Shown: piece after piece, positions 21,649-25,820 of the stretch
How positions within the stretch are numbered: position 1 is the stretch's first letter
Layout of the letters: each line of letters begins with the position of its first letter
From: Paenibacillus xylanilyticus
GTDB taxonomy: Bacteria > Bacillota > Bacilli > Paenibacillales > Paenibacillaceae
NCBI RefSeq assembly: GCF_009664365.1
Contig: NZ_CP044310.1
Coordinates: 2,925,001 to 2,989,000 of the forward strand
Length of the DNA: 64,000 nt
Direction of reading: 5' to 3'
The notes under the pieces: generated by a model
What the model saw: only the letters and a program-made list of their open reading frames with translations
What the model was told of the DNA's origin: nothing
Databases searched by the model: none
Position numbers and translations under genes: made by a program

Positions 21649-23349
21649 ATGAACACATTTTTTGTTGATTCGAGCGGGAATCTGAAAACACAATTAAGAG
21701 GTAAAGAGGTTCTATCCAATCCAATTCTGAACAAGGGTATTGCCTTTACCGAAGAAGAGAGAAAAGAACTGAACCTGAACGGCATTTTGCCGCCGATGGT
21801 TTTAAATATTGAAGAACAGGTGAGCCGGGTTTATCAGCAGCTGCAAAATGAGTCTGATAACTTGCGTAAAAGCATCATGCTGAATGACTTGTTCAACCGA
21901 AACATTGTTTTATTTTATCGATTATTGAAAGAACATCTTAGTGAAATGCTGCCGATTGTATATACACCTACGGTTGGGCAAGCGATACAGGAATATAGCC
22001 ATCAATACCACAGACCTGGCGGAGTGTACCTCTCCATTAACGATATGGACGGCCTGGAGGAGGCATTCCGAAACAGTGGTCTGCAAGCTGGAGACGTGGA
22101 TCTCATTGTGGTAACCGACTCGGAAAGCATCCTCGGTATCGGAGACTGGGGTGTAGGCGGCATTAACATTGCCATCGGTAAACTGGCGGTGTACACCGCT
22201 GCCGTAGGGGTTGATCCAAGCCGAGTACTTCCTGTGGTACTTGATGTAGGAACGAACAATCCTACTTTGCTGAATGATCCATTATATGTAGGGAATCGTC
22301 ATGAACGTATCCGCGGTGAGAAGTATGATCAGTTTATTGAGGCTTTTGTGAAGGAAACGACCAAATGGTTCCCCGACGTTCTGCTTCACTGGGAAGACAT
22401 GGGCAGCGTAAATGCCAGAAACATCATCCATAAATATGGAGAAGAGCTGCTCACCTTCAACGATGACATTCAAGGAACGGGTGCAGTCACACTGGCTGCT
22501 GTAATGTCAGGTGTTCAGGTTACGGGTGTACCACTTCGTGAGCATCGTGTACTGGTATTTGGCCCAGGTGCTGCCGGTATTGGTAATGCGGATCAGATCA
22601 GGGATGCCATGATGGAAGAAGGACTTACGCAGGAGGAAGCGGAAAACCGGTTCTGGGCATTCGACTATCGCGGTATTTTGACGGACGAGATCGAAGGATT
22701 GTTCGAGTATCAAAAGCCATATGTACGCAAAGCGGATGAGATCAAAGACTGGAATCGGGGTGAACAAGGACAGGTTAATCTGCTTGAAGCTGTGACTCGT
22801 ATTAAACCGACCATCCTGATCGGTACATCAGGTGTTACAGGTGCCTTCAACGAACAGGTTGTGAAGGAAATGGCCAAGCATGTGGAACGTCCGATCATTA
22901 TGCCGATGTCCAATCCAACTTCTCTCGCCGAAGCAGCTCCAAAAAGCCTCATTGAATGGACGGACGGCAAAGCATTGATTGCAACAGGAAGCCCATTTGA
23001 ACCTGTAATGTATAATGATATTCAGTTCGAAATCGGTCAATCCAACAATGCATTTGTTTTCCCTGGTCTGGGATTGGGAGCTATTGTAGCCAAAGCTTCG
23101 AAATTTACGAAAAATATGTTTACAGCAGCCGCGATCGCGGTAGCAGGTGCAGTAGATTCTTCTGAACCAGGAGCTCCACTGCTGCCAAGGGTGAAAGAAT
23201 TGCAGGATGTTTCTTACAAAGTGGCCGTTGCAGTTGCGAAAGCAGCAATCGAAGACGGCGTTGCCCGCCGTCAACTCGAAAACGTGGAACAGGCGATTAA
23301 GGATGCCATGTGGCACCCTGTATATAGACCGATCCTTGCAGCAGTTTGA
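21649..23349 (+). CDS. maeA: NAD-dependent malic enzyme
   Basis: 566 residues, the usual length. Oxidative decarboxylation of L-malate to pyruvate and CO2 with NAD+. Visible features: malic-enzyme signature [46 protein letters not shown], the metal/catalytic segment [37 protein letters not shown], the dinucleotide-binding [15 protein letters not shown] and [12 protein letters not shown] near the C-terminus. It is followed by an AEC-type carrier gene, the same order as maeA-ywkB of Bacillus subtilis, supporting malate utilisation. The ribosome binding site is weak (GAAGG) but the start agrees with family length. Confidence 0.95.
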
Positions 23350-23427: not shown

Positions 23428-23530
23428 TTGGCTGTGTCCAAAATTGAAAATAACATATCACATGATCAAAATTTTTGTCATTTGTTGAAGTGTTGCAAAT
23501 GCTCAGATCATAAATGGAGGTTTGACCAAC

Positions 23531-24493
23531 ATGTCAGTAAGTGACATTTTCATTATATTAATTCCTATATTTTTCGTAATTTTACTCGGTTTTTTTGGAG
23601 GCTATTTCAAAGTATTTAACTCCGCATCCTCCAAAGGCCTGAATACACTGGTGACCAAGTTTGCGCTTCCGGCGCATTTGTTCATTGGTATCACGACGAC
23701 GAAAAAAGAGACCCTGATTGACAAGTGGCCATTCTTCATGACCATATTCCTCGGGATTATTGGCTTCTATGTTGTGCTGCTGCTGGTGATGCGTTTCATT
23801 TTCAAAGTCAATCTTAGCCAGTCATCGATCTTTTCATTGAATGCTACACAACCTTCGTTTGCATTTATGGGGATTCCGGTGCTGGGTAACCTGTTCGGTG
23901 CCGCTGAAGTCACCATTCCAATTGCAATTACGGGCATCGTAGTTAATGCGCTGCTTGATCCAATTGCGACCATTGTCAGTTCTGTGGGGAAGAAAACGGA
24001 AGAAGGCAAGCAGAGTGGTCATGGCGAGAGCTTGTTTAAACTTACAGTGCATTCCATCATCCATGGTTTGAAAGAACCGCTTGCCTGCATTCCGCTTCTG
24101 GGTGTAATCCTGACACTTTTTGGCTTCCAGTCACCTCAGCTGCTGCAAAGCTCCTTTGATCAGATCGGTAGCATCACATCCGGAGCAGCCCTGTTTGCAA
24201 TCGGGGTAACGGTGGGCATTAACCGGATCAAATTCAGTCTGAATGCCATCAGCATTTCGCTGTTGAAAGTGATTGCCCTGCCATTGTTTACGTACATGTT
24301 TGCATTGTTGATGGGACTCTCTTCAACCGACATGACAATGGTCATCCTGCTAGTTTCCTTCCCAGGCTCAGCCGTAGCTGCAATGATTGCTTCCAGGTTC
24401 GATACACTTGAGGTGGAGACGGCATCATCCTTTGTCATGAGCTCCGTGCTGTCATTGATCTCACTGCCGATCCTCATCTCCATATTGGTTTAA
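23531..24493 (+). CDS. AEC family transporter (malate-permease-like)
   Basis: 320 residues from ATG 23531, 10 bp after GGAGG (an in-frame TTG at 23522 touches the ribosome binding site). About ten membrane segments in two halves, typical of the auxin efflux carrier family, which includes bacterial malate permeases; FALPAHLFIGI and FSLNATQPSFAFMGIPVLGN are the conserved broken-helix regions in the first half. Being directly behind the malic enzyme gene, its likely substrate is malate or a related dicarboxylate. Its terminator has been split by the insertion sequence downstream. Confidence 0.88.
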   Translation: MSVSDIFIILIPIFFVILLGFFGGYFKVFNSASSKGLNTLVTKFALPAHLFIGITTTKKETLIDKWPFFMTIFLGIIGFYVVLLLVMRFIFKVNLSQSSIFSLNATQPSFAFMGIPVLGNLFGAAEVTIPIAITGIVVNALLDPIATIVSSVGKKTEEGKQSGHGESLFKLTVHSIIHGLKEPLACIPLLGVILTLFGFQSPQLLQSSFDQIGSITSGAALFAIGVTVGINRIKFSLNAISISLLKVIALPLFTYMFALLMGLSSTDMTMVILLVSFPGSAVAAMIASRFDTLEVETASSFVMSSVLSLISLPILISILV

Positions 24494-24501
24494 TTCAGAA
24501 G

Positions 24502-24513
24502 AAGCCGCGATAT
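24502..24513 (+). terminator. left half of a terminator split by an insertion sequence
   Basis: AAGCCGCGA plus loop TAT. The partner arm, TAT-TCGCGGCTT with six T, lies at 25805-25820. Joined without the element they form a perfect 9-bp stem with a 3-nt loop, 8 bp after the carrier gene. Confidence 0.88.
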
Positions 24514-24596
24514 TGGTATTATCCCCTTTTAGTAGACATGAGAAAAAAGACATCTGTTAAGATGAACTTAATCATGTAAACGAAGGGGATTTTTTC

Positions 24597-24896
24597 ATGG
24601 CTAAAAAAGGACAAACATACCGGCGGTACTCCTTGGAGTTGAAATTGGAGGCCGTCCGGCTGGTCAACGAAGAACATATGAGTATACGTGAAGTAGCGAC
24701 GCGTTTAGATATTCAAAATAAATCTCAGGTACAAGTGTGGGCAGCCAAAGCGAAACAGGGAATGAGTCTAGAACCTGCTACACCCAAACGGGGACGCCCT
24801 AGAACCAAGTTTTCCAGTATGGAAGAAGAGATGGCGTATTTGCGGGCGGAGATTGAATACTTAAAAAAGCAATATCCAAATCTACACAAGGAGTGA
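24597..24896 (+). CDS. IS3-family transposase OrfA
   Basis: 99 residues, ATG after GAAGGGG. DNA-binding protein of the element: helix-turn-helix RRYSLELKLEAVRLVNEEHMSIREVATRLDI, basic linker KRGRPRTKF, then a leucine-zipper-like C-terminal helix MEEEMAYLRAEIEYLKKQ used for multimerisation. Near its end, TTA AAA AAG contains the slippery heptamer A-AAA-AAG (24863-24869), where ribosomes can shift into the orfB frame to make the OrfAB transposase. The gene's stop overlaps the GTG of orfB by 4 bp. Confidence 0.93.
   Translation: MAKKGQTYRRYSLELKLEAVRLVNEEHMSIREVATRLDIQNKSQVQVWAAKAKQGMSLEPATPKRGRPRTKFSSMEEEMAYLRAEIEYLKKQYPNLHKE
24863..24869 (+). promoter_or_regulatory. -1 ribosomal frameshift site A-AAA-AAG
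   Basis: The heptamer is in the correct phase of orfA (codons 89-91). A -1 slip continues as AISKSTQGVTSK directly into orfB, giving one OrfAB fusion. Confidence 0.8.
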
Positions 24897-25759
24897 CGAG
24901 TAAAGCAGCCAGATTTCAAATCATTGAGGACCTGAGAGCACGCCATGGTCTGGCTTGGCTCTTGAAGTTAGCTGCGGTTTCCCGCTCGGGTTATTACAAG
25001 TGGAGAAAAAGCATAGCAGCCGCAAAAGAGCGTAGACACAAAGAACATGAACTAGAATCCCATTTGCTTGCCATTCATCGCGTGCATCCTTACTTTGGCT
25101 ATCTTCGAATGACCGTTGCTTTACGACGGGAAGGCCTTCGAGTCAACCACAAAAAGGTGTACCGATTAATGAAACAATTAGGCATCTGTTCTGTCATTCG
25201 AAAAAAGCGTCGATTCTTTGGAAAACAAGCCTCTGTGGTAAACCCAAATCGGCTGGAGCGTCAGTTTCAGGCGGATACACCACGAACGAAGCTGGTTACG
25301 GACATTACCTATATTCGTGCTGGAGAACACTTTGTGTATCTGTCTGTTATTCAGGATTTATACAATAACGAAATTGTAGCGTGGCATCTTTCTGAACGAA
25401 ATGACCTTGCTTTAGTTCATGACACGCTGGATAGACTCCGTCAGCACGTGGATCTGAATGGCGTAATCCTACACTCAGATCAAGGATTTCAATATACGTC
25501 GAAGCCATTTAACCGTAAACTAAACCAGCTTGGCATGCTAGGCAGTCACTCCAGGCGTGGAAATTGCTTAGATAATGCCTGTGTTGAATCTTTTTTCTCT
25601 CATTTGAAGACGGAGAAAATTTATTTGAATAAGGCGGCAAACAAAGCAGAGGTTGAGCAGCAAGTGAATGAATACATACTGTTTTACAACCAAAACCGAT
25701 TTCAGAAAAAACTAAACGACCGTTCCCCGGTAGAATACCGGGAAACGGCCGCAGCTTAA
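24893..25759 (+). CDS. IS3-family transposase OrfB (DDE integrase domain)
   Basis: 288 residues if read from GTG 24893; normally made as the C-terminal part of the OrfAB fusion. HTH_21-like segment (about 50-110, HPYFGYLRMTVALRREGLRVNHKKVYRLM) precedes the rve integrase core. The catalytic triad is complete: Asp137 (TDITYI), Asp196 (LHSDQGFQY) and Glu232 (NACVESFFSHLK), with exactly 35 residues between the second Asp and Glu as in IS3 elements. No stop or frameshift damages it. Confidence 0.95.
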   Translation: MTSKAARFQIIEDLRARHGLAWLLKLAAVSRSGYYKWRKSIAAAKERRHKEHELESHLLAIHRVHPYFGYLRMTVALRREGLRVNHKKVYRLMKQLGICSVIRKKRRFFGKQASVVNPNRLERQFQADTPRTKLVTDITYIRAGEHFVYLSVIQDLYNNEIVAWHLSERNDLALVHDTLDRLRQHVDLNGVILHSDQGFQYTSKPFNRKLNQLGMLGSHSRRGNCLDNACVESFFSHLKTEKIYLNKAANKAEVEQQVNEYILFYNQNRFQKKLNDRSPVEYRETAAA

Positions 25760-25804
25760 ATCTTGTCTTTTTTTTGTACTGTCTACTTGACAGGGTTATG
25801 ACCA

Positions 25805-25820
25805 TATTCGCGGCTTTTTT
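25805..25820 (+). terminator. right half of the split terminator
   Basis: TAT duplication, TCGCGGCTT arm and T tract; partner of 24502-24513. In its present form it cannot fold with the left arm except across 1.3 kb. Confidence 0.85.

Follow-up and report, generated by a model that had tools for sequence, protein, structure and literature searches.

Intrinsic terminators as apparent targets of an IS3-family insertion sequence in Paenibacillus xylanilyticus and its relatives

An insertion sequence in the chromosome of Paenibacillus xylanilyticus lies between the two arms of a transcription terminator, in the window analysed here (the whole stretch of 64,000 nucleotides, positions 2925001-2989000 of one chromosome of 6,447,596 bases). 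This location raises the question of whether the transposase of such an element chooses terminators and, if so, what it recognises in them, or whether gene ends are simply the places where an insertion survives. It also raises the question of what becomes of termination at a gene whose terminator has been divided. The reading put forward below, to which a probability of about 0.8 is given as a whole, is that the transposase chooses intrinsic terminators, that the point of insertion is measured from their A- and T-tracts, and that the element carries built-in replacement terminators.

The divided terminator and the element within it

With the element and one copy of TAT removed, the joined flanks read AAGCCGCGA-TAT-TCGCGGCTT (Table 1) and fold, at -21.9 kcal/mol, into a 9-bp stem with the 3-nt loop TAT, located 8 nt past the stop codon of the carrier gene. 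The preliminary description of this DNA had placed the element between the halves of a 9-bp terminator after the carrier gene and had taken the duplicated TAT to be the whole of the loop; direct reading confirms the former, coordinates included, and the fold of the joined site agrees with both. It had also counted six T after the stem. The run of six T is present (25815-25820), but two of these lie within the stem, such that the tail past the stem has four. The GC-rich stem, small loop, T-tract and position at a gene end are those of a rho-independent terminator, as predicted from the sequence.

The element itself has the features expected of the IS3 family. Its transposase is of the DDE (rve) IS3 type by NF033516, rve and HTH_21 matches, its two open reading frames overlap with ORF B in the -1 frame at an A6G slippery site, and its TG...CA inverted repeats are flanked by a 3-bp target duplication; a duplication of at least 3 bp is likewise found at 65 of the 84 sites described below. 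A tree of ORF B, in which the deep branches are weak and the rooting is by midpoint only, places the clade beside IS150, ISKpn8, ISEnfa3 and one other IS3 type of the same chromosome, and away from IS600, IS1133 and ISKpn18. The element is most probably an active-type member of the IS3 family within an IS150-like clade, an assignment that forms part of the joint figure given above.

Table 1. Features of the locus, in positions of the window
Feature	Position	Strand	Basis or remark
Malic enzyme gene	21649-23349		upstream of carrier gene
Carrier gene, Mem_trans / auxin-efflux-type transporter	23522..24493	+	owner of the split terminator; downstream of malic enzyme
Terminator left arm, AAGCCGCGA	24502..24510	+	direct reading; fold of joined site
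TAT, target duplication copy 1 (original loop)	24511..24513	no strand	
IS3-family element, 1291 bp, ends TGGT...ACCA	24514..25804	+	ends, profile matches, TAT duplication
Left inverted repeat TGGTATTATCCCCTTTTAGTAGACA	24514..24538	+	
Extended -10 TGGTATTAT in left inverted repeat	24514-24522	+	
Leader hairpin	24521..24595	+	predicted terminator and hidden ribosome-binding site
Pairing in leader hairpin	CCCC of left repeat 24523-24526 with GGGG of ribosome-binding site 24585-24588		followed by TTTTTT 24590-24595
ORF A (HTH_Tnp_1)	24597..24896	+	
AAAAAAG slippery site, -1 frameshift from ORF A to ORF B	24863..24869	+	sequence; ORF B in -1 frame
ORF B, IS3-family transposase (HTH_21, rve integrase core)	24893..25759	+	NF033516, 300.6 bits (cut-off 160 bits)
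Right-end hairpin inside end of ORF B, T-rich tail on minus strand	25703..25752	-	predicted to terminate transcripts that enter from the right
Right inverted repeat	25780..25804	+	
TTGACA, predicted -35 of circle-junction promoter, in right inverted repeat	25787-25792	+	
TAT, target duplication copy 2	25805..25807	no strand	
Terminator right arm TCGCGGCTT and T run	25808..25820	+	arm itself 25808-25816

Target sites in the chromosome and across the Bacillales

The same chromosome contains seven full copies of the element, five of which are nearly identical. By inspection, six of the seven split terminator-like hairpins, of the type AAGCC...GGCTT, with duplications that are all different (TAT, TTT, ACT, AAG, AAA and TCG), and five of the seven pass a strict automatic terminator-loop test (a near-perfect stem of at least 8 pairs, a loop of 3-9 and a T-rich tail; p about 1e-9). 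Three further IS3 types of this chromosome are similarly placed in terminators. Within the genus the element is found in 21 of 75 genomes, with flanks of similar appearance. The comparison of empty-site alleles proposed in the preliminary description succeeded in part: the terminator that is split at locus L005 is uninterrupted in sister species (L166, L168, L171 and L174), but for the site in the window the sister species compared yielded no empty allele, one of them having a decayed copy there while another differs at this position.

Some observations on individual copies may be set down here. The decayed copy (L156, genome G012) sits at a junction identical to window 24502-24540, while four other copies in the window's own genome are identical to the one in the window; either an old shared insertion was later homogenised or one terminator was hit twice. 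A single copy of the seven (L007, G000:C1:202680-203972) has no target duplication, its flanks being GT and GG with no hairpin across the element, and is possibly the product of recombination between copies. All seven lie on the + strand of the deposited chromosome (G000), from 0.2 to 4.8 Mb and on both sides of its middle. In different species, the copies at six loci (L013, L015, L017, L021, L033 and L037) lie in one kind of terminator within a repeated palindromic unit, TCGAGGGACAAGAAC...GTTCTTGTCC, which is perhaps a small mobile repeat with a terminator that serves as a landing pad.

The wider sample combined the genus set with 80 named genome loci at 45-94% protein identity, almost all of them from Bacillales. 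Element ends were assigned from the end motifs alone, blind to any hairpin, giving 87 distinct sites, 84 of them with enough flank to be analysed. The strict test is passed by 39 of the 84 empty sites, against 0.86% of window positions (those that touch or fall within a terminator-like hairpin loop; p about 1e-57). The joined flanks fold with a mean of -16.2 kcal/mol, as opposed to -8.6 kcal/mol when flanks are exchanged between sites (p 1e-26, n=84), the insertion point ranks among the top 5% of positions within 420 bp to either side at 54/84 sites, and the centre of the duplication lies within 1 nt of the hairpin axis at 51% of sites, against 11% of random window positions. A convincing hairpin is absent at a handful of the 84 (L063, L070, L089, L007 and some others).

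It might be argued that these statistics reflect selection only, in other words that insertion is random and that the survivors are found in harmless places such as gene ends, elements that disrupt genes having been lost. Almost all sites are indeed at gene ends: the 76 intergenic sites comprise 35 between convergent genes, 40 between codirectional genes and one between divergent genes, convergent pairs being uncommon in the window itself (3/36). Harmless gaps, however, explain neither the placement at the hairpin centre nor the distance of 7 nt from the tract discussed below, the distances being bimodal, and when the insertion point is shifted by at least 15 nt, upstream or downstream, the strict-terminator signal drops from about 46% to 0-1/84. 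Selection as the sole cause is thus very improbable. The suggestion made in the preliminary description, that the element may target terminator hairpins, is strongly supported by its own copies, those of related species, relatives at 45-94% identity, the position statistics and the intact equivalent of L005. That the transposase of the clade chooses intrinsic terminators as its targets is accordingly regarded as highly probable, again within the joint figure for the whole reading.

Transposons of other families were also considered. Elements with PF01609 and PF00872 transposases, intended as a negative control, are absent from this genome, and of those in its relatives some lie in terminators and others do not. 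At six sites (L180, L183, L186 and L191 in Cytobacillus oceanisediminis; L192 and L194 in Paenibacillus apiarius) a PF01609-type transposon lies between two complete copies of a terminator hairpin (such as GAGCACCCTTCAGGTGCTC, present twice), the whole hairpin being the duplication, an outcome which had been proposed in theory (PMC5678879). In P. apiarius a PF01609-type element has repeatedly entered an IS3 element of the present kind (L178, L181, L184 and L187), each time in the region of its left-end repeat, as if the hairpin there were itself a target. Another PF01609-type element of this species (L198-L207) has 6-bp duplications at short palindromes, ACTGCA-N6-TGCAGT, that are not terminators.

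Spacing from the A- and T-tracts

There is no common target sequence, since 35 different duplications occur in 65 sites; rather, the information content of the flanks is highest in the A-rich tract on the left and the T-rich tract on the right. In this regard, the A- or T-tract closest to the duplication lies 5-9 nt away in 63% of cases, 10-14 nt in 8% and 15-19 nt in 25%, which is to say that the spacing is bimodal, at about 7 nt or about 17 nt. Among seven extra copies held out from the analysis (from L208-L237), six match the rule of 7-9 nt. Across 862 kb of host sequence the lengths of natural terminator units vary widely, and the targets include more than the expected share of short ones. 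Other IS3 types may use other lengths, of about 13 nt and about 19 nt on each side, as seen in two or three copies of each.

An alternative is that the transposase attacks the loop of a hairpin or cruciform extruded from the DNA, or of a single-stranded hairpin formed during replication. Models of this kind exist for IS1272 (PMC5678879), and of the 80 sites whose stem has at least 8 bp, 56 have the duplication in the loop and 36 have it exactly centred. A loop-seeking enzyme should nevertheless stay central whatever the length of the terminator, yet where 22-31 nt separate the A-tract from the T-tract insertion is central in 2/20 and lies 5-9 nt from one tract in 16/20. Recognition of an extruded form is, on this evidence, unlikely, if still arguable. 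The rule thus appears to be anchored on the tract, the loop being hit when the terminator is short, and the description of the element as sitting exactly in the loop stands for short terminators, the window site included, and fails for long ones. A spacing of about one helical turn further suggests that the target is recognised as duplex DNA.

A third possibility is that the element follows stalled RNA polymerase, or the RNA hairpin, at the terminator, such that insertion is coupled to termination. The sites do lie a few nt upstream of T-tracts; the direction of the element, however, has no preference relative to the flanking or carrier genes (17 sites in ++ and 23 in -- contexts), and coupling to termination is considered quite improbable. 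The preferred reading remains one in which the transposase, as a complex with the circle junction, would recognise the unit of A-tract, palindrome and T-tract as duplex DNA and would measure its distance from the tract. The distances observed, close to 7 nt or greater by roughly one helical turn, put the insertion in the loop of short terminators and in an arm of longer ones.

Transcription at the element ends, and known systems

The left inverted repeat includes TATTATCCCC and the leader before ORF A ends AAGGGGA-TTTTTT-C-ATG; the two pair, with a fold for this copy of -26 kcal/mol (z -3.9) that is stable within the context of an incoming transcript. In 86/87 relatives CCCC pairs with the ribosome-binding-site GGGG just before the T-tract, with a mean of -30.5 kcal/mol. 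Moreover, the variable 3' arm folds with its own 5' arm at -11.6 kcal/mol as opposed to -7.3 kcal/mol with exchanged arms (0/5000 permutations), and paired changes are seen in the arms, such as CCCCC/GGGGG in L107. RNAalifold on a MAFFT alignment of the leaders gave no consensus pairs, MAFFT having misaligned the arms, and it is therefore on the arm-exchange test that the covariation of the leader rests. In this copy the loop of the left hairpin is long and branched, which makes the strength of that hairpin as a terminator uncertain. At the right end, a hairpin facing the opposite transcription is found in 87/87 relatives, as compared with 4.5% of control windows; these hairpins have 14-20 bp, are quite different in sequence among elements and carry a T-rich tail on the minus strand, which in some relatives is merely T-rich.

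When the ends are abutted, as in a circle, a TTGACA-18-TATTAT layout appears in 87/87 relatives, with one or two hexamer changes in a few. Transcripts from this predicted promoter would start just past CCCC, and in folds of transcripts that start after CCCC the leader pairing is gone. Both hairpins are also present in other IS3 types that land in terminators, and neither is found in IS1133, IS600 or ISKpn18 (few cases, with a single site each, none of them a terminator). In IS150 the right hairpin alone is clear, and E. coli IS150, together with one E. coli relative seated in a terminator, is without a strong leader hairpin.

Both hairpins could be by-products of constraints on the inverted repeats and the coding sequence, with no role in stopping transcription, given that the inverted repeat itself serves as the 5' arm of the leader and that the right hairpin lies within the conserved SPVEYR coding region. 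However, the 3' arm of the leader falls beyond the repeats and fits the element it belongs to and not others, the right hairpins retain 14-20 bp although their sequences are wholly unlike, and IS3 types that do not land in terminators are, in the few cases available, without both; the by-product view is accordingly unlikely. Most likely, the element brings with it predicted inward-facing terminators on both sides, and read-through is probably blocked at its ends. The earlier concern that transcripts may run into the transposase is then unlikely as stated, since the predicted left hairpin with its T-tract would stop transcription and also hide the ribosome-binding site, and the right hairpin would block the other side. 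In other words, at the left end transcripts reading in from the carrier gene would either terminate or escape translation, and at the right end those of a convergent neighbour would terminate, such that the terminator destroyed by the insertion would be replaced by the element's own. Translatable transposase mRNA would then come only from the junction promoter of the excised circle, starting past CCCC.

What was already known is that IS3-family elements (IS1397, ISKpn1) target palindromes and that IS1272 targets terminators. Apparently new are terminator targeting by an IS3 clade, the spacing rule and the predicted built-in replacement terminators: no description of IS3-family insertion into intrinsic terminators was found in the open-access literature, which is weak evidence of absence, nor in the same literature any of tract spacing or of a replacement terminator based on an inverted repeat. 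In a compact genome nowhere is safer to land than a terminator, and if an element locates terminators without needing a fixed sequence and restores termination, this would explain a low-cost spread; it also offers a sequence-independent way of inserting DNA at gene ends.

IS1397 and ISKpn1 are IS3-family elements that insert specifically in the palindromic units, or REP, of enterobacteria, a choice attributed to the transposase (reviewed in PMC1525189). Like the present element these enter palindromic intergenic DNA, but they keep to a single family of repeats whose sequence is nearly fixed, whereas those of the present clade share the layout of a terminator and not a sequence. A palindromic-unit specialist of the IS1397/ISKpn1 type was rejected, there being no common target sequence and the information being highest in the A- and T-tracts. 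IS1272 and TnSha1, of the IS1182 family, also target terminator hairpins with little sequence preference (PMC4923244, PMC5678879). They differ in having another transposase family, in partly deleting or replacing the hairpin and in making no target duplication, while here there is a 3-bp duplication and nothing is lost; assignment to the IS1272/IS1182 type (DDE_Tnp_1-type, no duplication, hairpin deleted) was rejected from the different Pfam families, the duplication and the complete hairpin halves.

IS150 is closer, with a related transposase (those of E. coli IS150 and of ISKpn8 have 36.7-37.7% identity to the present one), a 3-bp duplication and landing at hairpins. Its approximately six distinct sites, from twelve E. 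coli records and one plasmid record, are all in or beside hairpin or terminator regions, and they (L238-L249) cluster at hok and ibs toxin loci with hairpins of sok- and sib-type antisense RNAs. In an evolution experiment new IS150 insertions recurred at the hokC, hokE, mokB and ldr loci and were interpreted as an adaptive loss of toxin systems (PMC5419217); as opposed to this adaptive reading, the hotspots at hok and ldr in laboratory evolution may be a matter of target preference. IS150 differs, however, in its end sequences, in the want of a strong leader hairpin and in also entering coding genes (cycA, nadR and brnQ; PMC5419217), such that its preference for hairpins is not exclusive. Whether one ancient target rule covers all of these is an evenly balanced matter: a large IS3/IS150-type clade may apply a protein ruler to duplex terminators (7 nt or one helical turn more, other subgroups being centred at other lengths), with two inward-facing terminators as payment, one made from its own inverted repeat, and the preferences of IS1397 and IS150 for palindromic units and hok/ldr may be special cases of it.

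In respect of transcription the likeness is to IS200, in which one hairpin terminates incoming transcripts and another structure hides the ribosome-binding site (as summarised in PMC3196728), both functions being predicted here. IS200 is without inverted-repeat ends, whereas the present element would use one hairpin for both roles, the 5' arm of which is the inverted repeat bound by the transposase. Class C group II introns also insert beside intrinsic terminators. These are retroelements that have no transposase, and their chemistry and position of insertion are different from those of the present element.
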